Below, piece by piece: positions 1,845 to 23,989 of a stretch of 47,241 bases of DNA. The stretch is taken from positions 1 through 47,241 of the forward strand of contig REDJ01000097.1 of NCBI GenBank assembly GCA_007693555.1, written 5' to 3'. The notes under the pieces are model-generated. The model ran no database searches and was not told where the DNA came from. It was given only the letters and a program-made list of their open reading frames with translations. Position numbers and translations under genes: made by a program. This DNA comes from Bacteroidota bacterium (GTDB taxonomy: Bacteria > Bacteroidota > Bacteroidia > Bacteroidales > UBA7960). The stretch's first letter is position 1. Each line of letters begins with the position of its first letter.

Positions 1845-1881
1845 AGAATATAGAGTTACTATTTTTATTGTGTATGATTTA

Positions 1882-4056
1882 TCATACCGGAGACACTACC
1901 ACTACAAAACCTCCCAATGGTATCATATCAATGGCGATTTCTTCATCATGCTGTATGTTTTTGGTATCGAAACGGAAGGTCTGGAAGTCTTCCCCATCCA
2001 GGTAAAAAGAGGCCTTGTATTCTCCTGGTTCCAGGAAATCAGGGGTAAAAGAGATGGTTCTGTTATCCTTCTTTCCGTTAATGCCCGAAATATACCATGT
2101 GTCGCCTGATTGGCGGGCCAGGGCCGAGTAATCTCCCGGGTATCCTGCAATAAATTTTATTTCATCCCACACCACCGGTACATCCCTAAGGAATTCAATT
2201 ATGAAATCGGGCTGCTGCCGGACATAATCAGCCCATTCGGCAATATGCAGGAGACCGGTTTCATAGTGCACCACCAGGGCCAGTTCATGGGCGTTGCTGG
2301 TAATTCTGGGATATCCGCCTCTGCGTGTTGACAGGGTAAAGGGTGTATAGTCGGTTGGCCCCACCACATCGCGGATAAAGGGATAAATGGTGTTCTGGAT
2401 GGGGGCAAGCTCAGGCCAGTCGGGAGTTCCATAAAATTCAGCACCCATTACTGCTTCCATGGTCAGCAGATTCGGGAAGGTTTTGGTCCAGCCACGCGGG
2501 ATAGTAGAGCCATGGGTGTTGATCAGAATTTCATTTTTGGCGGCTTCCCTGAAAATATTGATGTACATTTTGATGATCTCCTGTTTGTCGCTGGCAAAGA
2601 AATCCAGCTTGATGCCCCGCACACCCCTTTCTCTGAGAAGCTGGAACTCTTTAACCCTGGCTTCTTCTTCGTAAAAACGATCGCGCGGGCGTGCATTGCG
2701 GTTGCGGGCTGCCAGGATGATCTGCTCGCCCCAGCGATTAAAGTCATCATCACCCAAATGCGTATGTACCACCTCATAATATTCTTCTTCGGGAAAAAAC
2801 CCGGTGTTATAAATAGGCCTGAGTTTGCTGAGTACTTGCTGAGGAACTCCTTCCACACGGAGGTTTGCGACCACTTCATCGGTGAGGTTGAAATACCACA
2901 TCACCCTGTTGTTGGGGCCACCTGAGTTGTACCATATAAACAGCTCCACCCCCTGCTCATGGGCATATTCGATCAACTGGTCAATATTGCCGTTTCTCAT
3001 AATATCCCAGTCGGCATCTACCAGGGAGTATTTCCAGCCCATTTCAGCCGAAAGGTCAACATGGTCTGCAAGGGGAATATAGTCGCTGCTGCTGGCCGGG
3101 TCGTGCCACCAGCTCCATGAAGATATGCCGGGTTTTATCCAGTCAGTATCTTCAAATTCGGTGGGGCGGCTCAAATGGTCTACGATATTAGATTCTACAA
3201 TATCGCCAAGGTTTTGAGTAATGATGGCAAATCGCCAGGGTGTTGTCCAGGGCAGTTTGCTGGAAGGGAATCGGCTAAACAGACCATAGCACTCATATTC
3301 TTCGGGGAATTCGAGCATGTAGTTTCCGCCGGGGGCATGTTGTCTCACGTGCATGCCGGCATAGTGCTCATCCAGATCGGCTTCCGAAACCAACACCCAG
3401 GTACCGTCATCCTTTTCAAAGAGCAAGGGAAGTGCCCAGCCATAACTTACCGGGGCTGATGTGCCGATGGGAATTTCCCTGTCATAGGGAATTTCGTAGC
3501 CCAGGCTCCAGTGGCGAATGGTATCGTAGGTCTGCATCCAGGCTTTGCCACCGGTGGTATTCAGATTAAAGGATGATAATTCGTCGATCACGGTAAACCA
3601 CCGGATCGTATCTTTTGCCGGAAAATGGTAACGGAATGCCACCCCTTCATCGTAGGCACGGAAGGACATTTCAATAATTTCATTCTCCTGGTTCTTAAAT
3701 GCAATGGTGATTTCGTTGCAATTGTTAACATCGTTTATTCGTTTGCCGCTGATAACAGTATACGGCTCGTATATGGATTGTTTTCGGAATGAGTGAAATC
3801 GAAGGTTTTTTGAGAAATCCATGTCTTTACGCACCAGCCCCAACGTTGAGTTTTCCAACGCAGTAAAGGTGTTGCTTTCTGACATGAGAAGAGCATCATA
3901 GGTAACCGTTCCCGAAGACGGGTCAAGGGTTACCTGTACCAGGATATTACCATCAGGTGAGGATACCTGCCAGTTGGTTTGATTCTGTTGGCAGGAGATG
4001 ACAAAAAGCATAGCGCTGAGAAGCGGAAGCAGAAATAGCTGTTTTTTACTTTTCAT
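1882..4056 (-). CDS. GH97 family glycoside hydrolase lipoprotein (retaining type predicted)
   Basis: The 724-residue product starts with a lipoprotein signal (FVISC, Cys22) and has the GH97 architecture: an N-terminal beta-super-sandwich (about 28-305, beginning VSSPDGNILVQVTLD), a central TIM barrel (about 306-620, ISSWSWWHDP onward) and a C-terminal beta domain. GH97 enzymes are calcium-dependent alpha-glucosidases (SusB-like, inverting) or alpha-galactosidases (retaining). Here GIKLDFF places Asp485 where retaining members have their nucleophile, and TMEAVMGAEF supplies Glu534 as the likely acid/base, so a retaining alpha-galactosidase-like enzyme is the better guess. Between the IWYNSGG strand (about 380) and the PRDR segment (about 458) there is a run of about 70 residues that I do not recall in typical members. 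Gap to the DUF1593 gene upstream is 37 bases, so co-transcription is likely. Confidence 0.92.
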   Translation of the reverse strand: MKSKKQLFLLPLLSAMLFVISCQQNQTNWQVSSPDGNILVQVTLDPSSGTVTYDALLMSESNTFTALENSTLGLVRKDMDFSKNLRFHSFRKQSIYEPYTVISGKRINDVNNCNEITIAFKNQENEIIEMSFRAYDEGVAFRYHFPAKDTIRWFTVIDELSSFNLNTTGGKAWMQTYDTIRHWSLGYEIPYDREIPIGTSAPVSYGWALPLLFEKDDGTWVLVSEADLDEHYAGMHVRQHAPGGNYMLEFPEEYECYGLFSRFPSSKLPWTTPWRFAIITQNLGDIVESNIVDHLSRPTEFEDTDWIKPGISSWSWWHDPASSSDYIPLADHVDLSAEMGWKYSLVDADWDIMRNGNIDQLIEYAHEQGVELFIWYNSGGPNNRVMWYFNLTDEVVANLRVEGVPQQVLSKLRPIYNTGFFPEEEYYEVVHTHLGDDDFNRWGEQIILAARNRNARPRDRFYEEEARVKEFQLLRERGVRGIKLDFFASDKQEIIKMYINIFREAAKNEILINTHGSTIPRGWTKTFPNLLTMEAVMGAEFYGTPDWPELAPIQNTIYPFIRDVVGPTDYTPFTLSTRRGGYPRITSNAHELALVVHYETGLLHIAEWADYVRQQPDFIIEFLRDVPVVWDEIKFIAGYPGDYSALARQSGDTWYISGINGKKDNRTISFTPDFLEPGEYKASFYLDGEDFQTFRFDTKNIQHDEEIAIDMIPLGGFVVVVSPV

Positions 4057-4093
4057 GTGTAATTTATTTACGATTACTTAAAATAATTTTATT

Positions 4094-5422
4094 TTAATCT
4101 ACATTCAAGATCACTCTCCTGTAGCGTGTCATAGGAAAAGATGCATTGTCTTTAACTTCACATATTACATGAATGGTTTTTCCAGCCGCATCTGAAGGAA
4201 CAGTCATTTGTGCCTCAGGATTGTCATTATTTTGAATTTCAACGGACGCTCCATAAGTTCCGGCTTCGGGATAAACCCACCAATTGAAGATCAGCTCATC
4301 GCCATCGGGATCGTAAGTGGGTGAAGCATCCAGCTTTATAGCACTTCCGGGCTTAACCAGGAGATTCTGAGAATGGGCCAACTTAACGACCGGGGCATGA
4401 TTGGCGTCTTCAAAGTTTGAAGCAGCAGTCCATTGCATACGTGCAGCAAAATCTTCCTGTATAGGGATGATGAAACGCCACAAGGGTTTAAGGTTGTCGC
4501 CATCATCTTCAGCGTCGATCCAGAAATTGCCAGGCCCAATCCTTTCAAAGCGGCCACCCCAACCACCCCATGAAGGATTTTCGTGGCTGCGCATACCGGT
4601 ATTAATCACATGGAAGAAGGCCGGTGAGTCTCCCTCTTCCAATTCATCGCGATCGTAGATAGCTCCAAAACTGCTTACCTCCTTTATGTTACGTGTAGTC
4701 CATTCCCGGGTATAAACTTCGTGGTCCTTTAATGGATTCAAGCGGTCCCAGGCGTAGGCCACCACGCGCCAGAACTGACTTTGATTCAGGATATAGTTTA
4801 CCTGTGGAAACTCCTCATGCATCCACTCTCTTAAGTCGTCCTGCTCGGCAATGGCATAGATCCATGCTTTTTCAGATGCTTTTTCCAGTTGGTCGGGGTA
4901 AGATTCTTTAATGCGGTAAAGGGCCTGTGCAATATTGTTGAGTCCGCCCCATGCCTGCAACCAAACCGGGCGGGGGTCATCATCCAGCAATACTTCCACT
5001 ATTTTGTTTGATCCGGGAGTGTCCCATCCTTCACCCACAGCAGCTCTGCCTACTTGCTCCATCTGACCTACGTAGATCTTTGATTTCAGATATTCAGGTT
5101 CGGGAAAACCTGGATGGTGTGCCTTTAGATTTGGATATACTCTGGCATATTCGTCGATCATGTCGTGCATCCACTCCGTACCATTGCCCTGAAGGTGCCA
5201 CATAGAGTTGGTGTAAATCAGGGCTTCAATGTCGAAATCGGTGGTATAAAGCAGGAAGCGCAGAAAAGAAGCCTTATCGTCGGTTTCGCCATCGGTGGTT
5301 ACGATGATGCGGGGCCGCTCGGCTGGTTCATCTGCCAGCGATGTTGAACAACTGTAGATTATTGCTGCCATGACCAGGCAACAAATGAACGTTGTAAGTT
5401 TACGAAGCATTGATGTTTGCAT
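4094..5422 (-). CDS. DUF1593 (nucleoside-hydrolase-like) lipoprotein with C-terminal Ig/PKD-like domain
   Basis: The preferred start is the Met codon at 5422, because the following residues form a clean lipoprotein signal (MAAIIYSC, Cys25). An upstream in-frame start at 5500 would overlap the previous gene and add a polar tail ahead of the signal. The 442-residue product carries a DUF1593 domain from about residue 38 to 310, opening with RIIVTTDGETDD. This resembles the Asp-rich first loop of nucleoside hydrolases with DTD altered to TTD. The last 100 residues (APVVKLAHSQ, YDPDGDELIFNWWVYPE) look like a PKD/Ig-like beta-sandwich that could bind glycan or protein. DUF1593 proteins are common in Bacteroidota polysaccharide loci, and to my knowledge their substrate is not firmly established. 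The gene sits between a true nucleoside hydrolase and GH97. Confidence 0.85.
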   Translation of the reverse strand: MQTSMLRKLTTFICCLVMAAIIYSCSTSLADEPAERPRIIVTTDGETDDKASFLRFLLYTTDFDIEALIYTNSMWHLQGNGTEWMHDMIDEYARVYPNLKAHHPGFPEPEYLKSKIYVGQMEQVGRAAVGEGWDTPGSNKIVEVLLDDDPRPVWLQAWGGLNNIAQALYRIKESYPDQLEKASEKAWIYAIAEQDDLREWMHEEFPQVNYILNQSQFWRVVAYAWDRLNPLKDHEVYTREWTTRNIKEVSSFGAIYDRDELEEGDSPAFFHVINTGMRSHENPSWGGWGGRFERIGPGNFWIDAEDDGDNLKPLWRFIIPIQEDFAARMQWTAASNFEDANHAPVVKLAHSQNLLVKPGSAIKLDASPTYDPDGDELIFNWWVYPEAGTYGASVEIQNNDNPEAQMTVPSDAAGKTIHVICEVKDNASFPMTRYRRVILNVD

Positions 5423-5499
5423 AGTTTTCAGGTTTTTGTTTACAATCTTAGCTTTAGTGTCGGGCTGACTGGAAGTTGCCCTGTCACTGATTATTATCA

Positions 5500-6519
5500 T
5501 TAAAAATCATCAAGCATAAACGAATAAATGATTTCGGCCATCTCTTTCGGGTCTTTTTTCAAAACCAGGTAGGCATGGTTGGTGGGCCGGTCGTTGACCT
5601 CCATCCAGTAATTGCCTCCGGTGCTGTCGGCCACGCAAATACCGTTTTCAACAATATTCCAGTATTTTCCGATTCCGCCCCTTACCGTGTAAAGAACAGA
5701 TGTCTGATCATAAGTGGAATTAGGCGTAATCGTTCCGTCCTGATAGTATTCCTTCATCCAGGGTGCATAGCGGCTGAAATGTTTATACCCCACGTACAAT
5801 GGAGAGTTTTTTCCTGCTTCTGAAAGTCGGGGCCCTGTTTTGATCTCAACCCCAATCTCATAGCCAGAGAAAACAATAGGAACCGTTAGGTTTTCCAGCA
5901 CATACTTTGTAACTCCGGGCATACCACCATAAAAGTTCCATTCCCATTCCCCGCCGGGGAATTTTCCACCCATAATGGAAAACTCTTTTACCTTGAGCTC
6001 AATAAGCTCTTTTCCGGTAAGTGGTGAATACACATCAGGGCCGGATTGAATGAGATTCCTGATGTTGGCAAGTGGTCCTGTGGTAATGATCACTACGCTG
6101 TTATCGGGTTGAGATGCCAGGATTTTCCGGTAAAGGTCAGTTGCAAGGGGTACATCACTGTTGGTGAGTTCATGATGAAAGGCTTCGGCGATGGGCCGGG
6201 CATGCTGCCAGTCAAGCGTAAAGGTATCATGAGATCTTACCCCGATTAGAATTTCCGGATTTCCATAATAGCGGTTGATAGCGTCAATGGCTGGTACAGT
6301 GTATTGCTCGGGGTTCCATAGCATAATGGCCAGGAGCTCACATTCGCCCCTGTTTTGAAAATTATGCAACATGGCAATGGCCCCCAGGTCATCAGCGTCG
6401 CCACCAAAATCGGTGTCGAAAATGATTTTTACTGGTGGTTCAGCGGCTTCGGAACAAGCCATCAAAAGCGGGAAAAGCGCAATTATAAATAAGCTTTTTA
6501 TGGGATTTAAGTATTTCAT
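5500..6519 (-). CDS. Inosine-uridine preferring nucleoside hydrolase family lipoprotein
   Basis: The 339-residue product has a lipoprotein signal (LLMAC, Cys22) followed by KIIFDTDFGGDADDLGAIAM, the calcium-binding Asp cluster of the nucleoside hydrolase family (Asp35, Asp37, Asp41, Asp43, Asp44). The length fits a complete single-domain enzyme. The central VVIITTGPLANIRNL segment matches the family strand that precedes the active-site loop. Family members break the N-glycosidic bond of ribonucleosides to free base and ribose. The exported location would release ribose outside the cytoplasm, with ribokinase and DeoC of the same block handling the sugar inside. Specificity is not readable from sequence, and in polysaccharide loci such proteins may act on other ribosides. 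The stop lies 77 bases before the preferred start of the DUF1593 gene. Confidence 0.9.
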   Translation of the reverse strand: MKYLNPIKSLFIIALFPLLMACSEAAEPPVKIIFDTDFGGDADDLGAIAMLHNFQNRGECELLAIMLWNPEQYTVPAIDAINRYYGNPEILIGVRSHDTFTLDWQHARPIAEAFHHELTNSDVPLATDLYRKILASQPDNSVVIITTGPLANIRNLIQSGPDVYSPLTGKELIELKVKEFSIMGGKFPGGEWEWNFYGGMPGVTKYVLENLTVPIVFSGYEIGVEIKTGPRLSEAGKNSPLYVGYKHFSRYAPWMKEYYQDGTITPNSTYDQTSVLYTVRGGIGKYWNIVENGICVADSTGGNYWMEVNDRPTNHAYLVLKKDPKEMAEIIYSFMLDDF

Positions 6520-6621
6520 AGTATTTTTTTTTTTGGAACTTGGATGACGCTGATTGTTATAGTTGATTTGTTGATCCTGAAAATGATTTAATCATATTTG
6601 TCAGCATCATTTGCGTTAATA

Positions 6622-7638
6622 TTATTGATTTATGTTATTATACTTTTTACTGTTTATCCGGATTATCTGCTCCCTGACAAATCTTCCAGATTCAGAAAGA
6701 TGTTTTTCGGGGTCCCAGTTGCCTGAAACTGGAGCACCAGGTTGCAGAGCTGCTGAGGCTTCTTCCTTGTCGAAAACCGACCAGTTGTTCATGCTTAGGT
6801 TTCGCTCCAGTGCCCAGTCGAGCCACTCCTTAGCTTTGTCTTTATGAACAATCATGTCTTGGCCACCATCAGCATGGGATGTGCCCCACTCGGAGATGAA
6901 AAGAGCAATGCCTTTGGAAAGGGCATAATCGCCCATATCTCTTAGTTCTTGCCCATGTGTACCTGCATAAAAATGGAGAGAATAGGCCGTGTTTTTATCA
7001 GGTAAGGGATTATCAGCAGGTTCGTTTACCATTTGGCTCCAGTTTCTTGTTCCGGAGATGATCAGGTTATCGCTATGAGGCCTGATCACTGATGTTACCG
7101 CATTGGTAAAGACAGCTATCTCTTCCCAGCTTTGGTTTACAGGCTCATTAAAAGTCTGCCATAACAGATTGGGGTACCTACCGTACTTTTTTGCCAGGTA
7201 TTCGAAAAACTCCTTAGCTGCTTCAGTATGAATATGGTGGGTGTGCCAATTTACAAGAACATAGATTCCATTATCAATGGCAGCCTGTATGATGGTTTCA
7301 GCAAGTTCAAACTGACCTTCTTTATTGTATATCCAGCCTTGATTCCCCTCTCCGTCGTCGTTTATATCCACTGCGATAGAAACCCTTATCATATCAATTT
7401 TCCAATCTTTCACCAGCCAGTCCACCACATCTTTATTGTAATATTTCTGAGCTCCCCAGATGGACCAGAAAAGGCTCATCCCCATAAGTTGCACAGGTTT
7501 GCCATGCTCGCTAACAATCTGGTTGCCCGATACCTTTAGTCGCCCATGTGTTTCCACCGGAGTTTGAGTGAAGGATGGCGTCATTGAAATCATTACGAAA
7601 AGGATGAGCATTAATGCGGTTTTACAATAGATTCTCAT
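6622..7638 (-). CDS. GH5 family endo-glycanase (endoglucanase-like), secreted
   Basis: The 338-residue protein has an N-terminal signal peptide (about 1-24, cleavage likely after PSFTQ) and one GH5 barrel with no accessory domain. Diagnostic parts are GNQIVSEHGKPVQLMGMSLFW (first strand), IDMIRVSIAV, VLVNWHTHH, WQTFNEP with acid/base Glu165, LHFYAGTHG, and ALFISEWGTSHADGG with nucleophile Glu250. This arrangement is closest to the GH5 group that contains bacterial endo-beta-1,4-glucanases (subfamily 2). The lack of a lipobox suggests a free periplasmic or secreted enzyme. It sits inside the block with nucleoside hydrolases and GH97, 63 bases after ribokinase. Other beta-1,4-glycans such as mannan remain possible. 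Confidence 0.9.
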   Translation of the reverse strand: MRIYCKTALMLILFVMISMTPSFTQTPVETHGRLKVSGNQIVSEHGKPVQLMGMSLFWSIWGAQKYYNKDVVDWLVKDWKIDMIRVSIAVDINDDGEGNQGWIYNKEGQFELAETIIQAAIDNGIYVLVNWHTHHIHTEAAKEFFEYLAKKYGRYPNLLWQTFNEPVNQSWEEIAVFTNAVTSVIRPHSDNLIISGTRNWSQMVNEPADNPLPDKNTAYSLHFYAGTHGQELRDMGDYALSKGIALFISEWGTSHADGGQDMIVHKDKAKEWLDWALERNLSMNNWSVFDKEEASAALQPGAPVSGNWDPEKHLSESGRFVREQIIRINSKKYNNINQ

Positions 7639-7701
7639 ATTCTTTTTTTTTGAATGGGTTTCAAAAGTTAATTGCTTTTCAATTTATTCCCAAAAGGAAG
7701 A

Positions 7702-8616
7702 CTAAAATTGGGAGCTTTCAATCTCATGCAAATTAGGAGCTGAAGGTTGAGCTCCTAATCGTGTTACAGAGATGGCCGCAGCCCTTTGTGCAAAATCGAT
7801 GGCTTCCCGGATAGGTTTTTCAGCTGCAATACTTGCAGCTAGTGCCCCATTGAAAACATCGCCTGCCGCGGTGGTGTCTACTGCTTTCACTTTGTATCCC
7901 GGGATCGCTTCCCTGATTTTCTCATTACAAAGGTAAACCCCCTTGCTGCCCAGGGTAATGATAACTGTTTTAATCCCTTTGGCCAGAAGTTCCGCAGCCA
8001 TTGATGGAATGTCATCCGCTCTGACTTCCTTTCTGCCAGTTAGCAGAGCCGCTTCAGTCTCATTGGGTGTCAGAATACTTACTTTTCTCAGCAGCTCATC
8101 ACTAAGCAGAGCTGCAGGAGCAGGGTTCAGAATTAAAGGGATGCCCATGGACTGAGCTTTATCAGCAATAGCAGCTATTGTTTCCAATGGGGTTTCCAGT
8201 TGTGCAAGAATTAACCTTGCCCCGGTAAATGCATCCTTATATTTTACAATATCTTCTGGCAGCAAATGGCTGTTGGCTCCTGAAGCAACAGAAATACTGT
8301 TTTCTCCGTCGTCAGAAACATTGATCAGGGCCACCCCGGAGTGCGTTCCGGTTTGCACTTTAATGTATTGGGTGTTTATGCCATCTTTACGGTAGTTTTC
8401 AATAGCCTGCAACCCGAAGGAGTCATCGGCCACACAGGCTATAAAGGTTACTTCTGCTGCGGTACGTGCTGCGGCAACAGCCTGGTTGGCACCTTTTCCT
8501 CCAGGAATAACAAAAAATTCATTCCCAAGAATAGTTTCTCCCGGTGCCGGAATCCGTGGTACTTTTAATACCATATCGGTATTGGAACTGCCTACAACTA
8601 TTATTTTTTTACTCAT
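7702..8616 (-). CDS. rbsK: Ribokinase (PfkB family), possibly acting on 2-deoxyribose
   Basis: A 304-residue cytosolic sugar kinase of the PfkB family, the usual length for ribokinase. The N-terminal substrate motif (SSNTDMV, with PGGKGANQAVAAARTA at 38-53) and the C-terminal motif DTTAAGDVFNGALA (247-260), with catalytic base Asp253 in the AGD anion hole, are intact. The ITLGSKGV and LTPNETEA segments are also typical. It phosphorylates D-ribose to ribose 5-phosphate with ATP; related enzymes phosphorylate 2-deoxyribose. Because the gene directly follows deoC, whose product consumes 2-deoxyribose 5-phosphate, a deoxyribokinase role is a reasonable alternative. The two exported nucleoside hydrolases downstream favour ribose. 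The gap to deoC is 162 bases, longer than others in the block, so an internal promoter there is possible. Confidence 0.93.
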   Translation of the reverse strand: MSKKIIVVGSSNTDMVLKVPRIPAPGETILGNEFFVIPGGKGANQAVAAARTAAEVTFIACVADDSFGLQAIENYRKDGINTQYIKVQTGTHSGVALINVSDDGENSISVASGANSHLLPEDIVKYKDAFTGARLILAQLETPLETIAAIADKAQSMGIPLILNPAPAALLSDELLRKVSILTPNETEAALLTGRKEVRADDIPSMAAELLAKGIKTVIITLGSKGVYLCNEKIREAIPGYKVKAVDTTAAGDVFNGALAASIAAEKPIREAIDFAQRAAAISVTRLGAQPSAPNLHEIESSQF

Positions 8617-8778
8617 AATAACCCGGTTTTTTGATTATAAATTAAAACAGGTGAGCTACCTGGGACACCCACCTGTTTTCCTTTTTTTCCAACCTTATTT
8701 ATGAAAAAGAACCAACAATCATCCAGGTATACTTCAAACCCACTTCTCCACCTATTATTTACTAAAAATTCTATAACA

Positions 8779-9507
8779 TTATCCGTTTGATCCGGCATCG
8801 AACCGGGCTGCTGCTTCATCCAGCATGGCTGCAGTAGCGGTGGCTCCAGAACGTGTTGCACCCACATCTCTTACTGCAATCAGCTGATCGAGTGTGCGCA
8901 CACCTCCGGCAGCTTTCACTTTTACTTTATTTCCGGAATGTTGACGCATCAATCGCAAATCATCAAGTGTAGCACCGGTATAATTATAATTACCATCAGG
9001 CTGTTTGACAAAACCAAAACCGCTGGATGTCTTTACATAATCAGCGCCAACTCTGGTGCATATCTCACACAACTTAATCTTATCTTGTTTCTTTGTAATG
9101 AAATCTGTTTCAAAAATAACTTTTACAATCGCATTGCCGGCATGACAAGCTTCTGTAACCGCCCTGATTTCATCTTCGATATACTTCCAGTCTCCACCAA
9201 GAGCCTTCCCGATATTGATGACCATATCAATCTCGACAGCCCCGTCAGCAATGGCTTGCTTTGTCTCAAACACTTTCACTGCGATACTACTATTGCCGGC
9301 TGGAAAACCGATCACACATCCAACCAGGACATCAGAACCTTTTAACAGTTCTGCAGCACGTTTTACCGCGTAAGGCTTTACACATACGGAAGCCACATCA
9401 TATTTCACAGCGATGCGACACTCACGCTCCAAATCTTCATCAGTTAGGGTTGGATGTAAAACAGAATGGTCAATCATTTTTGCAAAGTCCTTTACTGTTG
9501 TAGTCAT
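8779..9507 (-). CDS. deoC: Deoxyribose-phosphate aldolase
   Basis: A complete 242-residue class I aldolase that splits 2-deoxy-D-ribose 5-phosphate into glyceraldehyde 3-phosphate and acetaldehyde. The key residues are visible: Schiff-base Lys159 in DYVKTSSGF, Asp94 in VEIDMVINIG, and Lys198 in KVKAAGGVR. The start is MIDHSVLHPTLTDEDLE-like after ten residues, as in the family. It is the first gene of the minus-strand block and is divergent from the hybrid two-component regulator, with 268 bases between them. A TAttTTTG-type -7 box lies 39 bases upstream of the start. Cytosolic nucleoside catabolism is the standard role and fits the ribokinase gene after it. Confidence 0.95.
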   Translation of the reverse strand: MTTTVKDFAKMIDHSVLHPTLTDEDLERECRIAVKYDVASVCVKPYAVKRAAELLKGSDVLVGCVIGFPAGNSSIAVKVFETKQAIADGAVEIDMVINIGKALGGDWKYIEDEIRAVTEACHAGNAIVKVIFETDFITKKQDKIKLCEICTRVGADYVKTSSGFGFVKQPDGNYNYTGATLDDLRLMRQHSGNKVKVKAAGGVRTLDQLIAVRDVGATRSGATATAAMLDEAAARFDAGSNG

Positions 9508-9775: not shown

Positions 9776-12700
9776 ATGCCCAAACATATTTGTTTTTTAT
9801 TCTCATTTTTCTTTTCATTGATTGCTTTCGGGCAATTAAAACCCGCCAGTATTTTTATGACCAGACACTTTTCAACTTCTGATGGATTGTCAAACAATAC
9901 AGGTTATACCATCACCCAGGATGGGAAAGGGTTTATCTGGATAGGAACAGACGAGGGTGTCAATCGTTTTAATGGTGTTGAATTTCAGCATTACTATAAA
10001 GATGCTGCCAATGATAAAACCTTGTTTTGGAACCGCGTTTACAATCTTCATACAGACAGCGATGGAGATATTTGGATTGCCGCCGATGCCGTTTCATTAT
10101 TTAACACAAAAAAAGAGACTTTTACACACTGGAAATATACTGATGGGAACCCTCCTGGTCTGGCATACATCAGAATTAACTCAATCAGTACGGATCATTC
10201 AGGTAACATATGGGTTGCCACTTATGAGGGTGTAAACATGATAAACAAAGCATCAGGCAAAGTGTCATCATTTTTTCCGGAAACGATGTATACTGTAACC
10301 CATTCAACTGTCGAATATTTACTACACAATAACTATCCGGCCTATGTAACTTCCGCTGCAGCCATGGTGTTAAATCATACTTTCAAAAATGAGGCTGCAA
10401 TCATTGACTCATTAAACCTTCTCTTCAATCACAACGAGAAAGCATTTTACTTTGAACGTATTCTTGAAAAAGCGGAGCAGGAACACAACCCGAACTCATT
10501 GCTTGAAAGGAGTGTAAAATTCATTGATACGGATCCAACCGGGAGAATATGGTTCGCATACCATCAAAGAGGGGTGAGCAGTTACGACCCATCTTCCGGA
10601 ACCTTCAGGCATTATCCTGATGCCGTGGATTCCGGCAAGGCAACCGGTGATCTGATCAACTCCCTTGTTTTTACTGAAAACAAAGTATGGATGGGAACCA
10701 CCCAGGAAGGTTTGAAAGTACTTGATGTTGAAAGTGGTGAAACCAGTAAAATCACTACAGATGGAGAAAGTTATATTTCACATTTAAGACTGGATAATAA
10801 TGAAATCTGGATTGCTGACAACAGTGGCGTTTTGATTTACAACATCGTGTCAGATACCTATAACCGCATAAGACTCCTTCATCCGGATTATGGTATTCTT
10901 CCGAATATGATAACCCGTTGTACTTTTCAAGACAAACAGGGTAATATATGGGTAGGCACAGCCAATAAGGGCGTCTTTTTATTGAAAACAAAAAATAATT
11001 TCATTTATTTCGAACACCATCTGAGGGGTATTTGGGAAGACACAGATTATATTGTTACATCAATCACTCAAGACAAAGAAAGCAATTTTTGGATTGGTTA
11101 TGCCAACGGAAGAGTTGACATCATAAACCCCGAAGGAATATTTAAAAATACTTTGCACAGACCTAAATATTACGAAACACTCATGCTTGATATCTTTACG
11201 ATATTTCGCGATGATGAAGATAATATGTGGATTAGCTCATATGAAGGAGGCGTTGAAAAATATGACAGCCGTGGTAATTTCATCAAATCATGGCGTCAAA
11301 GTCAGGGAACTGACATACAAATCAAAGGCAATGATATCCGTTCTATCGCGCAAGATTCCAGCGGAAAACTTTATTTTGGGATTCATGGCAAAGGGATTGC
11401 AATCCTGGACCAAAAAACAGGATACATTAAACATCTTACCAATGACCCTGCTAATCCATCTGAATCACTGGCCAGCAATTGGATATACTGGATAATGGTT
11501 GATAAACAAGACAATTTGTGGGTGTCTTCCGTATTGGGCCTAACCAAATACGCAACAAGCACCGGAACCTTCAACCATTTTAACTTCGGACAAGAGGAAA
11601 GCAGTCTGTCCATTGCACATACATTTACCATTGACTCAAAAGGACTTATCTGGGTTGGCACCGAGTTTGGGCTTGTCCTTTTTAATCCATTGAACCACAG
11701 CTTTTTGAGACTAACCAACGAACATGGTTTGTCAAGCAACCTGATCAGTGCCCTTGTGGAAGACAGCAACAATAATTTATGGATTAGCACTCCCAATGGT
11801 ATTGATTTTTTAGATTTGAATGGATTAGACTTGCATAAGGAACAAAACTTCTGCTCAGATAATTCCGAATTGTTTGCTAATCGCATAAGATCTTTTAACC
11901 GTGAGGACGGCTTGCTTTCCGATAATTTCACCAAGAATGCCTTTTATAAATCCAATACAGGCATGCTTTTTTTTGGTTCATCGCATGGAGTAGCAGGTTT
12001 TAACCCTGACTCCATACATATACATACCCTGACACCCCCGGTATATATTACAGGCCTCAGTCTTTTTAACAAAGAAGTCACCGGTCATGATGATACCGGT
12101 ATTTTAAAACAAAGCCTGATAGCTTCAGAAAGCATTAAACTCAAGCACTTCCAGAATGTAATTACATTTAAATATGTATCTCCGAATTTTACCGGAACTT
12201 CCAAAATTCGTTATGCCTATAAGCTGGAGGGATTTGATGAAAACTGGAACTATGTTGGAAATCAGCGTTTGGCAACTTATACCAACCTGGGGCCCGGCAC
12301 CTATAGTTTTCGTGTCAAGGCGACTAACAGCGATGGGATCTGGCTCGCTGAACCGGCATCCCTGCAGGTCATTGTATTGCCGCCCTGGTGGAAAACAACC
12401 CCTGCTATCATGATTTATTTCTTTATGCTTTTAGGCCTGTTTTACGCGTTACGTATTATTTGGACAATTAAAACAAAGGCCAGGTTGGAAATCGAAAAGA
12501 TGCAGGAACTAGATGCGCTTAAAACAAGGTTTTTTACCAATATTTCACACGAAATTCGAACACCACTAACCTTAATTGCCGGACCGATCAAAAAACTGAT
12601 CAGAGAAAAGGAACAGTTTAACTGGACATCTGACTTTCAACTGATAAACCTGATGTACCGCAACCTTCTCAGACTTCAAACATTGGTTAACCAGTATCTT

Positions 12701-14152
12701 GACTATCGAAAAATCGATACCGACAGTTTTCATTTAAGCGTTCGTAAAGGTGACATTGTTCTCTACATCAATGAAATAAAAGAAGCATTTGAATATGTCG
12801 CAATAGAGAAAAACATTAAGCTATCGCTTCTTGCAGAACAGCATTCTATAAATGCCTGGTTTGATCCTGAACTGATTGAAAAAGTTACTTTCAACCTTTT
12901 GTCCAATGCATTTAAGTTCACCCCGGCCAAAGGCTCCATAGATATTCGTATAGAACGCATCAAACACTCGGCAACCCCCCTGGCCAAAGCATATGCGGAT
13001 GAATATATCGCAGTTAGCATCAAAGATACCGGACCCGGCATACCAGAAAATCTCAGAGAAAAAATCTTTGACAGGTATTACCAGATCCAGGATGGGGCTA
13101 AAGTGAGGGTAAAAGGCACAGGTATTGGCCTTTCACTCGCCAAAGATCTGATGGAACTGCATAAAGGTGTTCTGAAGACATATCCTGCAAACCCATCTTC
13201 TTACCAGGATGGCAGTGTATTCGTTTTTTATATTCCTTATGGTAAGGAATATTATGAAGAAAACATAGCTCCAGACACGAAAGACCTGCCTATCAAAAAG
13301 CGCATGATGGATTTACCAATGACTTTTAAAACAGATGGTGTATTGCAGGATGATAGCATCCCAACCACTAAACAAGAGGACCTGCCTTTGATCCTTATTA
13401 TAGAGGACAACCCGGATGTGCGACAATACCTGAAACACGAGCTACGAGCATCATACCGGATACTCGAAACTGCCACAGCAGAAGAAGGTTATGAAATTGC
13501 CAGAAACGAGATGCCCGACCTGATCGTGTCAGATATCATGCTGCCAGGGATGGATGGGGATGAATTGTGTAAAAAGATAAAATCCGAGGTCCAAACCGAT
13601 CACATACCGGTAATCCTTCTTACTGCCCGATTTGGGGACCATGAAAAAATATCCGGTCTTTCCTCGGGTGCTGATGTCTATTTGACAAAGCCATTTATCC
13701 CTGAAGAGCTCATGGTAAGCATAAAAAATCTGATTGAATCAAGGAAAAAAATGATAGAAAAGTTTAATCTTGATTTCAGCAGCAAACCACTTAATATAAT
13801 ACAACAATGTGCTAAGGACAAATTCCTGGAAAAAGCACTTGCTATCATTGAAGACAACTTATCAAATACTGAATTGGATGTTGATTTTATGACATTGCAA
13901 ATGGGCATAAGCAGGGCGCAACTTTACAGAAAATTCAGCGCAGTTACTAACCAAACTGTTAAGGGTTTTGTTAAACTGGTACGATTGAAAAAAGCTGCAG
14001 AACTTCTGGCAACCGGTGATTTGAATGTATCTGAGGTTGCATATTCAGTCGGTTTCTCTGACCTGACATACTTTACAAGATGCTTTAAAGCCCAATACAA
14101 AATGACACCTTCGAAATATGCCTCGCAACATGGGCTAAAAGAGAAAGCATAA
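9776..14152 (+). CDS. Hybrid two-component system regulator (sensor kinase, receiver and AraC DNA-binding domain in one protein)
   Basis: This 1458-residue inner-membrane regulator senses a glycan fragment in the periplasm and controls nearby transport and hydrolase genes. The order is: signal peptide (1-20); two seven-bladed propellers of Reg_prop repeats (about 30-770, many [DN]xxGNIW[VI]G motifs); a Y_Y_Y domain (about 800-865, YAYKLEGFDENWN); one membrane helix (about 875-898); a histidine kinase with phospho-acceptor His925 in FFTNISHEIRTPLT and an ATPase domain (GPGIPENLREKIFDRYYQ, KGTGIGLSLAKDLM); a receiver domain with phospho-acceptor Asp1253 in LIVSDIMLPGMDG and LTKPF; and an AraC-type helix-turn-helix (about 1350-1455). 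Residues 165-248 are a helical, non-propeller stretch between repeats. The likely targets are the plus-strand phosphorylase genes that follow and perhaps the divergent deoC block. Confidence 0.97.
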   Translation: MPKHICFLFSFFFSLIAFGQLKPASIFMTRHFSTSDGLSNNTGYTITQDGKGFIWIGTDEGVNRFNGVEFQHYYKDAANDKTLFWNRVYNLHTDSDGDIWIAADAVSLFNTKKETFTHWKYTDGNPPGLAYIRINSISTDHSGNIWVATYEGVNMINKASGKVSSFFPETMYTVTHSTVEYLLHNNYPAYVTSAAAMVLNHTFKNEAAIIDSLNLLFNHNEKAFYFERILEKAEQEHNPNSLLERSVKFIDTDPTGRIWFAYHQRGVSSYDPSSGTFRHYPDAVDSGKATGDLINSLVFTENKVWMGTTQEGLKVLDVESGETSKITTDGESYISHLRLDNNEIWIADNSGVLIYNIVSDTYNRIRLLHPDYGILPNMITRCTFQDKQGNIWVGTANKGVFLLKTKNNFIYFEHHLRGIWEDTDYIVTSITQDKESNFWIGYANGRVDIINPEGIFKNTLHRPKYYETLMLDIFTIFRDDEDNMWISSYEGGVEKYDSRGNFIKSWRQSQGTDIQIKGNDIRSIAQDSSGKLYFGIHGKGIAILDQKTGYIKHLTNDPANPSESLASNWIYWIMVDKQDNLWVSSVLGLTKYATSTGTFNHFNFGQEESSLSIAHTFTIDSKGLIWVGTEFGLVLFNPLNHSFLRLTNEHGLSSNLISALVEDSNNNLWISTPNGIDFLDLNGLDLHKEQNFCSDNSELFANRIRSFNREDGLLSDNFTKNAFYKSNTGMLFFGSSHGVAGFNPDSIHIHTLTPPVYITGLSLFNKEVTGHDDTGILKQSLIASESIKLKHFQNVITFKYVSPNFTGTSKIRYAYKLEGFDENWNYVGNQRLATYTNLGPGTYSFRVKATNSDGIWLAEPASLQVIVLPPWWKTTPAIMIYFFMLLGLFYALRIIWTIKTKARLEIEKMQELDALKTRFFTNISHEIRTPLTLIAGPIKKLIREKEQFNWTSDFQLINLMYRNLLRLQTLVNQYLDYRKIDTDSFHLSVRKGDIVLYINEIKEAFEYVAIEKNIKLSLLAEQHSINAWFDPELIEKVTFNLLSNAFKFTPAKGSIDIRIERIKHSATPLAKAYADEYIAVSIKDTGPGIPENLREKIFDRYYQIQDGAKVRVKGTGIGLSLAKDLMELHKGVLKTYPANPSSYQDGSVFVFYIPYGKEYYEENIAPDTKDLPIKKRMMDLPMTFKTDGVLQDDSIPTTKQEDLPLILIIEDNPDVRQYLKHELRASYRILETATAEEGYEIARNEMPDLIVSDIMLPGMDGDELCKKIKSEVQTDHIPVILLTARFGDHEKISGLSSGADVYLTKPFIPEELMVSIKNLIESRKKMIEKFNLDFSSKPLNIIQQCAKDKFLEKALAIIEDNLSNTELDVDFMTLQMGISRAQLYRKFSAVTNQTVKGFVKLVRLKKAAELLATGDLNVSEVAYSVGFSDLTYFTRCFKAQYKMTPSKYASQHGLKEKA

Positions 14153-18510: not shown

Positions 18511-19500
18511 ATGACAAAGATTTTTGGTTTAGACCTTAAAAATATTCCCTGGGAAGAAAAACCCTCAGATTGTAATGAACCAATTTGGCGATATAGCCAA
18601 AACCCTATTATTGGCTGGAATCCAGCAAAAAACATCGCAAGGGTTTATAATAGTGCCGTTTTACCTCATAATGGTTCATTCATTGGTGTTTTCAGGGCTG
18701 ACCATAAAAACGGGAGAGCCAACATCCATTTTGGACGGAGTAAAGATGGTCTTCACTTTGAGATAGATGATTATGTGATCCCCTGGAAAAACCAAAATGG
18801 AGAACCTGCACCCGTTAGTTACGCCTATGATCCTCGTCTTGTTAAAATAGACGATGCTTTTTATGTAGTTTGGTGTGATGACATGCATGGGCCCTCTATC
18901 GGACTTGGCTATACCAAAGATTTAGTCAATTGGATAAGACTACCTAATCCCCTGATGCCATTCAACCGGAATGGCGTTTTATTCCCAAGGAAGATTAATG
19001 GAAAGTATAAATTACTCAGCCGCCCCAGTGACAGCGGCCATACTCCCTTTGGAGATATTTTTATCAGTGAAAGTCCCGATCTGATCCATTGGGGGTACCA
19101 TCAAAAAGTGATGGGAAGAGGTGGTAAGGGCTGGTGGCAAGGCGTAAAGATTGGTTCAGGCCCTACCCCAATAGAAACCAGTGAAGGATGGCTGTTGTTT
19201 TACCATGGTGTTTCTTCAACATGCAATGGTTTTGTATACAGTCTGGGTGCCGCTATTCTGGATATTGACAACCCGGCTAAGGTAAAATACCGTTGCGGAA
19301 ACTATCTGCTCACTCCCCAGGAACAATATGAAGTCAGTGGTTTTGTTCCGAATGTAATTTTCCCCTGTCAAAACATATACGATGCAGAAACAGGAAGGAT
19401 AGCCATATATTATGGTGCTGCAGATACTTTCACAGCACTGGCTTTTTGCCATGTTGATGAAGTAGTGCAATATATAAAAGAATATCATGAAGATATTTGA
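18511..19500 (+). CDS. GH130 family beta-mannoside phosphorylase
   Basis: This 329-residue cytosolic protein is a five-bladed beta-propeller glycoside phosphorylase. The segments ARVYNSAVL, FRADHKNGRANIHFGRSKDG, SYAYDPRLVKIDD and HTPFGDIFISESPD follow the GH130 pattern, with Asp107 of YDPRL as the predicted general acid. Family members phosphorolyse beta-mannosides such as mannosyl-glucose, mannobiose, mannooligosaccharides or mannosyl-N-acetylglucosamine, giving alpha-mannose 1-phosphate; some members instead hydrolyse beta-1,2-mannosides. The length is nearer to the shorter GH130 groups than to the roughly 390-residue mannosylglucose phosphorylases, but I cannot fix the subfamily by eye. 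The stop is 30 bases before the sugar transporter gene, so the genes are co-transcribed. It is the clearest sign that the locus handles mannose-containing sugars. Confidence 0.9.
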   Translation: MTKIFGLDLKNIPWEEKPSDCNEPIWRYSQNPIIGWNPAKNIARVYNSAVLPHNGSFIGVFRADHKNGRANIHFGRSKDGLHFEIDDYVIPWKNQNGEPAPVSYAYDPRLVKIDDAFYVVWCDDMHGPSIGLGYTKDLVNWIRLPNPLMPFNRNGVLFPRKINGKYKLLSRPSDSGHTPFGDIFISESPDLIHWGYHQKVMGRGGKGWWQGVKIGSGPTPIETSEGWLLFYHGVSSTCNGFVYSLGAAILDIDNPAKVKYRCGNYLLTPQEQYEVSGFVPNVIFPCQNIYDAETGRIAIYYGAADTFTALAFCHVDEVVQYIKEYHEDI

Positions 19501-19530: not shown

Positions 19531-20532
19531 ATGATCGTTATTCATTCTTACTCTTGGGCGGTTTTCCTTCTGTTCATAACCATGTTGTGCTGGGGTTCGT
19601 GGGCCAACACACAAAAAATGGCAACAAAAAAATGGCCTTTCCAGCTATATTACTGGGACTATGCCCTTGGAGTTCTGTTTCTTTCTCTATTGATGGCTTT
19701 CACAGCGGGAAGTATTGGTAATGAAGGACGAAGCTTTTGGGCGGATCTTATACAGGCAGATGCTTCAGCCGTAGGCTCAGCATTTCTGGGAGGCGTTGTG
19801 TTCAATATTGCTAATATCCTGCTCGTAGCTGCCATAGCTATTGCCGGAATGGCTGTTGCGTTCCCGATAGGTATCGGGTTAGCGCTTGTAATAGGTGTCG
19901 TGGTCAACTATATAGCAACACCACTGGGAAATCCCGTGCTGCTTTTTATAGGTGTTGGTCTGGTAACCACGGCTATAGTTCTGGATGCCCTGGCTTACCG
20001 GAAGCTGCCATCCTCCACACCTAAATCAACTTCCAAAGGTGTATTGATATCTCTGCTGGCAGGATTTCTGATGGGTTTCTTTTACAGGTTTGTAGCAGCA
20101 TCAATGGCCACAGATTTTGTAAATCCGGAAATCGGACGACTGACCCCCTATACAGCATCTGTTATATTCGCTATGGGCCTTCTGATCTCAAACTTTTTCT
20201 GGAATACTATCTTTATGTATAAACCACTGGCCGGAGAAAAAGTAACCTACCATGACTATTTCAGCAGGGGTACCACACGCCTTCATCTTATAGGAATCCT
20301 TGGGGGAGTTATATGGAGTATCGGGATGACTTTAAATATTATAGCAGCCGAACAAGCCGGGTTTGCCATATCCTATGGTTTGGGACAGGGAGCAACTCTT
20401 GTAGCGGCATTGTGGGGCGTTTTTATCTGGAAGGAATTTAAAGGAGCAAAAGGAGTAAACGGATTGCTTGCAGCGATGTTCGCATGCTTCATAGCTGGCC
20501 TGACATTGATAATCCTTGCCAGACTGCTGTGA
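19531..20532 (+). CDS. GRP/RhaT-like sugar transporter (DMT superfamily)
   Basis: A 333-residue inner-membrane protein with about ten hydrophobic helices. It begins with a WAVFLLFITMLCWGSWANTQK helix typical of the glucose/ribose porter (GRP) and RhaT-like branch of the drug/metabolite superfamily. The second half repeats the first in outline (GILGGVIWSIGMTLNIIAAEQAGFAISYGLGQG), as expected for the inverted-repeat fold. It probably moves a monosaccharide across the inner membrane. In this operon it lies between GH130 and the GH47-like lipoprotein, so it may import a sugar released in the periplasm, for example mannose or glucose. This gives the operon two different sugar transporters. The start at 19531 is 30 bases after the GH130 stop. 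Substrate unknown. Confidence 0.82.
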   Translation: MIVIHSYSWAVFLLFITMLCWGSWANTQKMATKKWPFQLYYWDYALGVLFLSLLMAFTAGSIGNEGRSFWADLIQADASAVGSAFLGGVVFNIANILLVAAIAIAGMAVAFPIGIGLALVIGVVVNYIATPLGNPVLLFIGVGLVTTAIVLDALAYRKLPSSTPKSTSKGVLISLLAGFLMGFFYRFVAASMATDFVNPEIGRLTPYTASVIFAMGLLISNFFWNTIFMYKPLAGEKVTYHDYFSRGTTRLHLIGILGGVIWSIGMTLNIIAAEQAGFAISYGLGQGATLVAALWGVFIWKEFKGAKGVNGLLAAMFACFIAGLTLIILARLL

Positions 20533-20603: not shown

Positions 20604-21533
20604 ATGGTTACATTTGTCAAAAGAATGTATGTTAAGTGTATTATCATAGTGTTTCCATTATTCCCGGGGTTATTTGCCTGCAGCCAACCGGATAGCCATG
20701 CTGATATCAAAAAAAAACTTGCAGAAGATGTCATTAATGAGACTTTAAGAACCTGGGAAGCTTACGTTACCTATGCATGGGGAGCCGACGAACTACTTCC
20801 TCTCTCAAGGCAATATCGCAACTGGTATGATGAACCCATGTATATCAGCTTGATAGATGCCTATTCGACATTAAAGATCATGGGCCTTGAGGATGAATCA
20901 ACAAGGATAGAACAATTCGTTGCCGACACCATCAGCTTTGACAAAGATATTTATGTCAAAGCAGTGGAAACAGATTCAACACTCTGGTATGGAGCTGCCA
21001 ATAAATATACGGGAGAGATCATTAAAGAACATGATGTAACCCTTTGGGATGCATTTTTACCGTTGGTGCTGATTTCTTCAGGTGACTCAGACAGGGCCGC
21101 CAAAATTGTTTACACATGGGATAAATTATGGAACAAACACAGTTTGTTGCCCATGGGATATAACTTCCACAGGGATGAAATCACAAACCCGCCTTATTAC
21201 CTGAACCCGGAACTGATTGAATCAGCATATTATATGTATCATTACACCAACGACACTTTATATCTAAATATGCTTAAACAATACTGGGCAGACATTAAAG
21301 AATACTGCCGTGCAGATATAGCCTATACACATATTGAAAAGATAAATATAATTACAAAGGAGCAGGCTGATCAGATGTCAACATTCTTTTTTGCCGAAAC
21401 CCTTAAATATTTTTATCTGGCATTTCCCGGATCGGAAGTTCATCCCGAGAATTTTGTCTTTAACACAGAAGCCCACCCTTACAGGAAAGAACATTTTGAC
21501 AGCAAAGAATTAGTTAAAATGCTAGGTCTTTAA
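20604..21533 (+). CDS. GH47-like (class I alpha-mannosidase family) lipoprotein with large internal deletion
   Basis: The ATG at 20604 is preferred over an in-frame TTG at 20577, since it gives a standard lipoprotein signal (PGLFAC, Cys26). The 309-residue product matches GH47 at both ends. The N-terminal part has RTWEAYVTYAWGADELLPLS (49-68), SLIDAYSTLKIMGL (82-95) and SFDKDIYVKAVET (111-123). The C-terminal part has YLNPELIESAYYMY (199-212), FFFAETLKYFYLAF (261-274) and the calcium-binding FVFNTEAHP (284-292). The family is usually 440-500 residues. About 150 residues expected between VET (123) and LWYGAANKYTGEI (127-139) are absent without loss of frame. The acid-region Glu122 and base Glu203 remain, but the Asp-bearing DS(Y/F)YEY block is missing. 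The layout is nearest to EDEM-like members. Activity is doubtful; a binding role or a remodelled enzyme is possible. It lies 17 bases before the next GH94 gene. Confidence 0.8.
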   Translation: MVTFVKRMYVKCIIIVFPLFPGLFACSQPDSHADIKKKLAEDVINETLRTWEAYVTYAWGADELLPLSRQYRNWYDEPMYISLIDAYSTLKIMGLEDESTRIEQFVADTISFDKDIYVKAVETDSTLWYGAANKYTGEIIKEHDVTLWDAFLPLVLISSGDSDRAAKIVYTWDKLWNKHSLLPMGYNFHRDEITNPPYYLNPELIESAYYMYHYTNDTLYLNMLKQYWADIKEYCRADIAYTHIEKINIITKEQADQMSTFFFAETLKYFYLAFPGSEVHPENFVFNTEAHPYRKEHFDSKELVKMLGL

Positions 21534-21550: not shown

Positions 21551-23989
21551 ATGAAATTTGGCTATTTTAACGACAATGACAGAGAGTATGTAATCAACAC
21601 TCCCACAACACCATATCCTTGGATCAACTATCTTGGGAATAATGATTTCTTTTCCATTATGTCGAACACAGGCGGGGGCTACAGCTTTTTTAAAGATGCC
21701 CGTCTGCGCAGAATCACGCGATTTACTTACAACACACCAGCCCTCGACATGCAGGGAAAATACTTTTATATTAAAGATGATGATGTTGTTTGGAATCCGG
21801 GGTGGAAACCTGTAAAAACAACACTGGACAATTATGAGTGTCGTCACGGACTTGGATATACCCGCATCATCAGCAGCAAGAATGATTTGCATGCAGATTT
21901 ATTGGCTTTTGTACCCCTCAACTTTACCGGAGAAATTCAAAAGATTACCCTTACCAACAAAAGCCTGGAGACAAAAAAAATCAAGCTGTTCTCTTATGTT
22001 GAGTTTTGTTTGTGGAATGCCCTTGATGACATGACCAATTTCCAGCGAAACTATTCAATCGGTCGTGCAGAATTGATTGACAATGCCGTTATCCATTTCA
22101 CCGATTTCCGCGACCGCCGTAATCATTATGCTTTTTCGGCCGTTAATTGCAACATTGATGGATTTGACTGTGACAGGGAAACATTTACAGGAACCCATAA
22201 TGGGTTAGAAAGTCCGCAAGTGGTAATGACAGGACAATCGCACGGATCAAGGGCCTTTGGTTGGTCACCTGTTGCTGCAATGCAAATTGAAATTACGCTT
22301 CAGCCTGGCGAAGAACGACAGTTGGTGTTTATGTTGGGCTATGCAGAGTACCCTGAGGAAGAGAAGTGGACAGCACCCGGACAAATCAACACGAGCAGAG
22401 TTGAGGAAATGAAAAAACAATTTGCAACTGCTGAACAGGTTGACAAAGCATTGAAAGAACTGGGTGTGTTTTGGTCTGAATTGCTTTCCGCATATCAGGT
22501 TAGCAGCCACGACGAAAAACTCAACCGCATGGTAAACATTTGGAATCAGTACCAGTGTATGGTTACTTTTAACTTGTCGCGAAGCGCATCCTATTTTGAA
22601 TCAGGCATAGGAAGGGGCATCGGTTTCAGGGATTCGAACCAGGACTTACTGGGTTTTGTTCACCAGGTACCTGAAAGAGCACGCGAACGCCTGATTGACC
22701 TCGCTTCAACCATGTTTGAAGATGGCGGTGCATACCATCAATACCAGCCACTAACAAAGAAAGGCAACCATGAGATAGGCGGCAATTTCAATGATGACCC
22801 GCTATGGATGATTTGTTCAACAGCTGCTTACATTCGGGAGACCGGTGACTTTAGCATACTTGAAGAACAAGTACCGTTCGACTGCAACCCTAAAAATAAG
22901 GCTACCATGTTTGAACACCTGAAAAGAGCTTTCTATCACGTGGTGAATAACAAAGGACCGCATGGATTGCCCCTGATCGGTCGTGCCGACTGGAATGACT
23001 GCCTGAACATGAACTGTTTCCTGAAATCACCCGATGAAGGATTCCAGACTGCCCCCTTTACCACCGATGGAAAAACAGCTGAATCCATCATGATTGCAGG
23101 AGCTTTCGTACTTTATGGTCGCGACTTTATAGAACTTTGCCGTGCTACAAAACAAATGGAAGAAGCAGAAAAAGCTGAGAAGTACATTAAGGAAATGACT
23201 CAAACCATTAAAAAGCATGGATGGGACGGCGATTGGTTCATCAGGGCCTACAATGCAAATGGTGAAAAAGTTGGTTCTGTGGAAAACGATGAAGGGAAAA
23301 TATTTATTGAATCGCAAGGTTTCTGTTCCATGGCAGGCATCGGATTAGAGGAGGGGTGGGTGCGTAAAGCCCTTGATTCAGTAAAAAAATATCTTGACTG
23401 CCCCTACGGGATAGTGCTCAACAACCCTGCTTTCACAACATACCGGATTGATCTCGGGGAAATTTCAACCTTCCTTCCTGGATATAAAGAAAATGCAGGC
23501 ATTTTCTGTCATAACAACCCCTGGATTATGATCGGCGAAACAATGATTGGAAGGGGAAACCATGCTTTCGAATATTGGCGGAAAATCGCTCCCTCCTATA
23601 ACGAGGAATCAAGTGAGTTACACAAAACCGAACCCTATGTTTATGCCCAAATGATAGCCGGTAAAGACGCATATAAACCCGGAGAAGCCAAAAACAGCTG
23701 GTTGACTGGTACTGCAGCATGGAATTTTGTTGCTATTTCCCAATATATTTTGGGCATAAAGCCCGAGTACGACGGGTTGGTTATCGAACCATGCATCCCG
23801 GAAGATTGGACAGGATACAGTGTTACCAGAAGATTTCGCGGTGCAACCTACCATATCGATATCAGTAATCCCAATCATGTGTCCAAAGGTGTAAGGAAAA
23901 TCAGTATGAATGGCAAAGAGATCACAGGTAACAAAATACCTTTGATACCTAAAGGTAGCAGTAGCAAAATAAAGGTTGTTATGGGTTAA
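21551..23989 (+). CDS. GH94 family cellobiose phosphorylase-like enzyme
   Basis: This 812-residue cytosolic enzyme carries the complete cellobiose phosphorylase motif set: [50 protein letters not shown] and [17 protein letters not shown], with general acid Asp480 in the ADWND motif. The length is as expected for cellobiose and diacetylchitobiose phosphorylases, shorter than cellodextrin phosphorylase. The reaction is cellobiose plus phosphate giving alpha-glucose 1-phosphate and glucose, saving one ATP relative to hydrolysis. It follows the GH47-like gene after 17 bases and closes the phosphorylase operon. Closeness to the divergent GH94 upstream points to gene duplication with change of specificity. 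The GH5 endo-enzymes of the window could supply cellodextrins. N,N'-diacetylchitobiose phosphorylase is the main alternative. Confidence 0.9.

Follow-up and report, generated by a model that had tools for sequence, protein, structure and literature searches.

Does a gene of the GH47 family that has lost the middle of its catalytic barrel encode a remodelled protein, or is it a remnant of a working enzyme? The question is raised by one open frame in a 47,241-nucleotide stretch of a Bacteroidales genome (hereafter, the window). An earlier note, made from the letters alone, described its product as a GH47-type lipoprotein without the middle of the family domain.

Assignment to GH47 and extent of the deletion

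The frame is open at the coordinates given in that note (20604-21533, plus strand) and encodes 309 aa, with an LFAC lipobox near the N-terminus. The product matches PF01532 (GH47) with an E-value of 4.8e-46 and 158.1 bits, compared with the Pfam cut-off of 22.9, and solved ER/Golgi class I mannosidases, including the ER mannosidase I structures, match it at 4e-24; NCBIfam assigns no model to it. Judged by the PF01532 cut-off, the protein is GH47 by descent, and its description as a GH47-type lipoprotein is borne out. The profile match consists of two pieces, covering positions 4-77 and 350-454 of 455. The missing block was also looked for elsewhere in the protein and is absent there; the claimed lack of the GH47 middle is confirmed. 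The comparison with EDEM-like proteins did not hold, as the nearest relatives are bacterial GH47s and not EDEMs.

The nearest full-length relative in 98 neighbouring genomes is L004, a protein of 475 aa, 70% identical in the alignment. It is encoded in G083, a genome of the same order as the window genome and of a different family. Similar to the window protein, L004 is a lipoprotein, but it is full-length, with 14 helices and all catalytic residues. Compared with L004, the window gene is without exactly 163 codons (489 nt), in frame, between K119 and A120. On the N-terminal side of the junction, SFDKDIYVK aligns to SFDKDIFVK of L004 and, on the C-terminal side, AVETDSTLWYGAA aligns to AVETETTLWYGAA; both flanks are collinear with L004, with 69 of 84 and 139 of 185 positions identical. 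The break was previously placed between VET123 and LWYG127. This has to be corrected, because AVETDSTLWYG belongs to the part after the gap (AVETETTLWYG in L004), which puts the true break slightly upstream. The gap itself is confirmed, but the proposed size of about 150 residues is too small by the L004 alignment. The lost residues correspond to helices 4 to 9 of the 14 in the predicted L004 structure. Coordinates of the gene, its parts, and its neighbours are collected in Table 1.

Table 1. Features of the GH47 locus in window coordinates
Feature	Position	Strand	Basis or remark
HTCS regulator	9776-14152		cluster member
GH130 phosphorylase, intact neighbour	18511..19500	+	Pfam, NCBIfam match
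RhaT/TMEM144-type sugar transporter, neighbour	19531..20532	+	81-83% identical to G083 and G007 copies
Internally deleted GH47 gene, predicted lipoprotein	20604..21533	+	ORF reading, PF01532 match
Lipoprotein signal peptide to lipobox cysteine C26 (LFAC)	20604..20681	+	sequence reading; low pLDDT residues 1-30
N-terminal GH47 part, residues 31-119, barrel helices 1-3	20694..20960	+	PF01532 4-77; modelled helices 31-58, 81-92, 96-109
DNA hairpin, 9-bp perfect stem, 10-nt loop, 3' arm across junction	20935..20963	.	folding
Deletion junction K119/A120, codons AAA/GCA	20960..20961	.	alignment to L004; L004 residues 124-286 missing
C-terminal GH47 part, residues 120-294, helices 10-14, PEL base motif E203, FNTEAHP calcium motif T288	20961..21485	+	
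GH94 phosphorylase, intact neighbour	21551..23989	+	Pfam match

Catalytic residues and predicted structure

Residues E330, D463, and E599 were proposed as catalytic in human ER mannosidase I (ERManI) (PMC5035969), and a later paper assigns E599 as the base and E330 as the acid and also gives the role of Thr688 (PMC12550843). EDEM3 is inactivated by the D294N substitution, equivalent to D463N (PMC7835635). ERManI numbering was taken from printed alignments as the 1fmi chain index plus 239, by which E330, R334, E397, D463, E599, and T688 all land on the expected letters. The motifs containing the E599 base and the calcium-binding T688 of ER mannosidase I and EDEM proteins are conserved in the window protein. 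Its E203 corresponds to E599, within an (R/N)PE motif, and is invariant in 40 sequences, and T288, within FNTEAHP, corresponds to T688. The equivalents of E330, R334, E397, and D463 all fall inside the lost block; the deleted L004 counterparts are E126 (E330), R130 (R334), E189 (E397), and D253 (D463). The Asp of the DS(Y/F)YEY motif and the active-site Arg and second Glu, all expected in a working GH47, are therefore deleted. The claimed loss of this Asp together with several barrel helices agrees with both the L004 alignment and the model described below. A glutamate drawn from downstream, E122, occupies the E330 alignment column; the surrounding stretch has pLDDT under 50, and its position in this column is a coincidence of the junction.

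The AlphaFold model built with 40 sequences has a mean pLDDT of 86.7 and is disordered at the junction (pLDDT under 50). It contains 8 of 14 helices, with helices 4-9 gone. Foldseek places it in the same family, GH47. In VIA-align, the model was superposed on the Caulobacter K31 GH47 alpha-1,2-mannosidase (PDB 4ayo, 5ne5). It covers 263 of the 434 residues in 4ayo, between positions 29 and 460, at 2.2 A and with Z 30.1; L004 covers 426 with Z 57.6. The Caulobacter enzyme has a closed (alpha/alpha)7 barrel, whereas the window protein is short by six of the 14 helices and its modelled barrel does not close. The two retained parts are predicted to be placed as in the full barrel, leaving an open wedge. 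The model shows where the pieces would go and not whether the fragment is stable, because its alignment holds full-length relatives. The cut takes exactly six helices, which form three complete hairpins, and ends at helix boundaries. A random in-frame deletion would take whole hairpins with a chance of about 17.5%; the chance that both its ends lie no more than one residue away from a helix end is 0.25%, a post hoc figure obtained with DSSP on a model. This precision is the strongest point in favour of a selected variant, although a modest one.

Distribution among relatives

GH47 genes were searched for at four taxonomic levels (47 genomes at family level, 393 at order level, 395 at class level, and 395 at phylum level), and a gene was taken as full-length if its match began at profile position 1-4 and ended at 453-455. 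None of the 57 full-length GH47s from these searches shares the gap, nor does any of 14 further loci on contigs of neighbouring genomes, which may overlap with the 57; the search for a homologue with the same gap, suggested earlier, thus came back empty. The gap as a trait of a family was rejected, as it was seen neither in GH47 relatives, nor in the family of G083, nor in the viral contigs searched. The distribution of GH47 is patchy, with the gene present in 1 of 12 genus members and 2 of 47 family members. In G190, of the same order and another genus, a C-terminal scrap of GH47 (L081:2581-2865 on G190:C7) lies between two intact genes and has stops in frame upstream. This decayed remnant provides a precedent for GH47 loss in the order.

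Sequence decay and the junction

The retained parts were inspected for signs of decay (stops, faster change) and none was found. The pN between the window gene and L004 is 0.149, and neighbouring shared genes give 0.117-0.205; synonymous sites between the two are saturated. Unique changes are balanced (11.4 in the window copy and 9.3 in L004), and therefore the window copy is not accelerated. Among columns with at least 95% agreement, 1 of 32 is violated, by F121V at the junction itself, in line with the earlier description of an open frame with the rest well kept. As judged from the sequence, such clean flanks would fit a deletion recent relative to the split from L004, an artefact, or continued constraint alike, and do not decide between them.

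Repeats or microhomology flanking the block were sought in L004 and none is visible (2 of 12 nt match on the left and 7 of 12 on the right), with the reservation that the true ancestor may differ from L004. Compared with all 51-nt windows across the 47 kb, the DNA hairpin across the junction ranks in the top 0.6% by strength. An inherited hairpin was rejected, as the structure is absent at the matching site of L004 and L005; the stretch folded for L008 lies just downstream of that site and is left out of this comparison. The hairpin could mark a site of slippage or of chimera formation. The promoter and terminator scan gave results at chance level.

Origin of the shortened gene

Taken together, the gene is probably a descendant of an ordinary bacterial GH47 that carries a recent, probably inactivating in-frame deletion, within a beta-glucan/mannan utilisation cluster. 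The alignment shows descent from a full-length bacterial GH47 exo-alpha-1,2-mannosidase lipoprotein similar to L004. According to the alignment and the model, a single in-frame 489-bp deletion took away helices 4-9 with the D463 equivalent and the native E330, R334, and E397, possibly by slippage at the hairpin crossing the junction. The product would be unable to close the barrel or to complete the -1 subsite, and most likely lacks catalytic activity; it may also be unstable. It would thus be a recent loss-of-function allele in a cluster that presumably does not depend on GH47, with a deletion too young for other damage or caught as a strain variant. Points in favour of the recent loss are the split profile match, the exact gap between collinear flanks, its absence from all relatives, the absence of the block from the rest of the genome, the loss of residues required in ERManI, the open barrel in the model, and the patchy distribution of GH47 with a decayed remnant in G190; undecayed flanks and a normal substitution rate fit a young deletion. 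Points against the loss-of-function reading are the open frame, the kept signal peptide and lipobox, the removal of whole hairpins, and E122 in the E330 column.

The second explanation, less likely, is an artefact of assembly or library preparation: the living genome would carry a full-length GH47, and the missing 489 bp would have dropped out during assembly or through a chimeric amplicon. The genome is a fragmented draft of 247 contigs with contamination of 4.33, the gap is seen in no relative, the flanks are undecayed, a strong hairpin lies on the junction, where chimeras can form, and an erroneous loss stays in frame with a 1 in 3 chance. However, a de Bruijn collapse would have had to occur without a shared k-mer, as no repeat flanks the block in L004 (if L004 stands for the ancestor), and the missing 489 bp are on no other contig.

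It is improbable that selection keeps the shortened GH47 for a function, as a half-barrel binding mannose-type sugars or acting in an oligomer. The open frame, the retention of all invariant residues outside the gap, and the normal substitution rate would fit it, as would the removal of exactly three hairpins, the kept base and calcium-site Thr, and E122 in the E330 column. Yet a recent deletion yields an equally clean sequence, the gap is a single occurrence absent from the 57 and 14 relatives, and half of the -1 subsite is lost with the R334, E397, and D463 equivalents. In addition, the junction is disordered in the model, and, as this was built on full-length relatives, its good scores are no proof of folding. 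The stronger proposal of a folded, exported half-barrel that arose by precise loss of three hairpins and serves as a lipoprotein in sugar binding or as an oligomer in catalysis is, in our view, very doubtful. Of the roles suggested in the earlier note, a pseudo-enzyme is likely; a remodelled binding protein and a minimal hydrolase working by a new mechanism are unsupported, because there is no homologue with the gap, the barrel is predicted to be open, and a recent deletion or an assembly error suffices. Finally, it is scarcely credible that the block is encoded elsewhere, through a split gene, a programmed rearrangement, or a spliced intervening element, as a search with the L004 block against the window's own genome (a draft assembly, 96.7% complete) found nothing, with a best E-value of 0.147, and the junction carries no insert.

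The case of a recent deletion calls for caution, as a clean in-frame loss of whole structural repeats can mimic a remodelled enzyme, and it is the relatives that reveal a one-off. If the fragment does fold and bind, it could serve to test how far the number of hairpins in an (alpha/alpha) barrel can be reduced.

Genomic context

The GH47 remnant is best read as part of a beta-glucan/mannan utilisation cluster, which comprises an HTCS regulator, an MFS sugar symporter, GH94, GH130, the RhaT/TMEM144-type transporter, the remnant itself, and a further GH94. Further along are SusC/SusD-like genes, named from size and order, and a GH5-CBM4 protein. The genes next to the remnant are intact. A literature search on GH47 together with GH130 in utilisation loci of Bacteroidetes found nothing relevant. 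The L004 locus of G083 and the window have in common the transporter (81%), ribokinase-like (69%), GH5-like, and nucleoside-hydrolase-like genes. This common gene content suggests that GH47 probably travelled together with the set.

A recurring gene set was also observed at 369-9507 (minus strand) of the window, in G083 (L077, G083:C80), and in G007 (L076), with 59-83% identity and near the RhaT/TMEM144-type transporter. It consists of ribokinase-like, nucleoside-hydrolase-like, Sde182 cellulose-binding NH-like, and GH5-like genes, with a DeoC-like aldolase in the window. The set resembles a conserved catabolic module of a ribose- or nucleoside-like kind that accompanies cellulose/mannan clusters. 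Its nucleoside-hydrolase-like and Sde182-like genes are separate in the window (4094-5500 and 5500-6519), and G083 has them fused in one 740-aa frame (L077:3800-6022).
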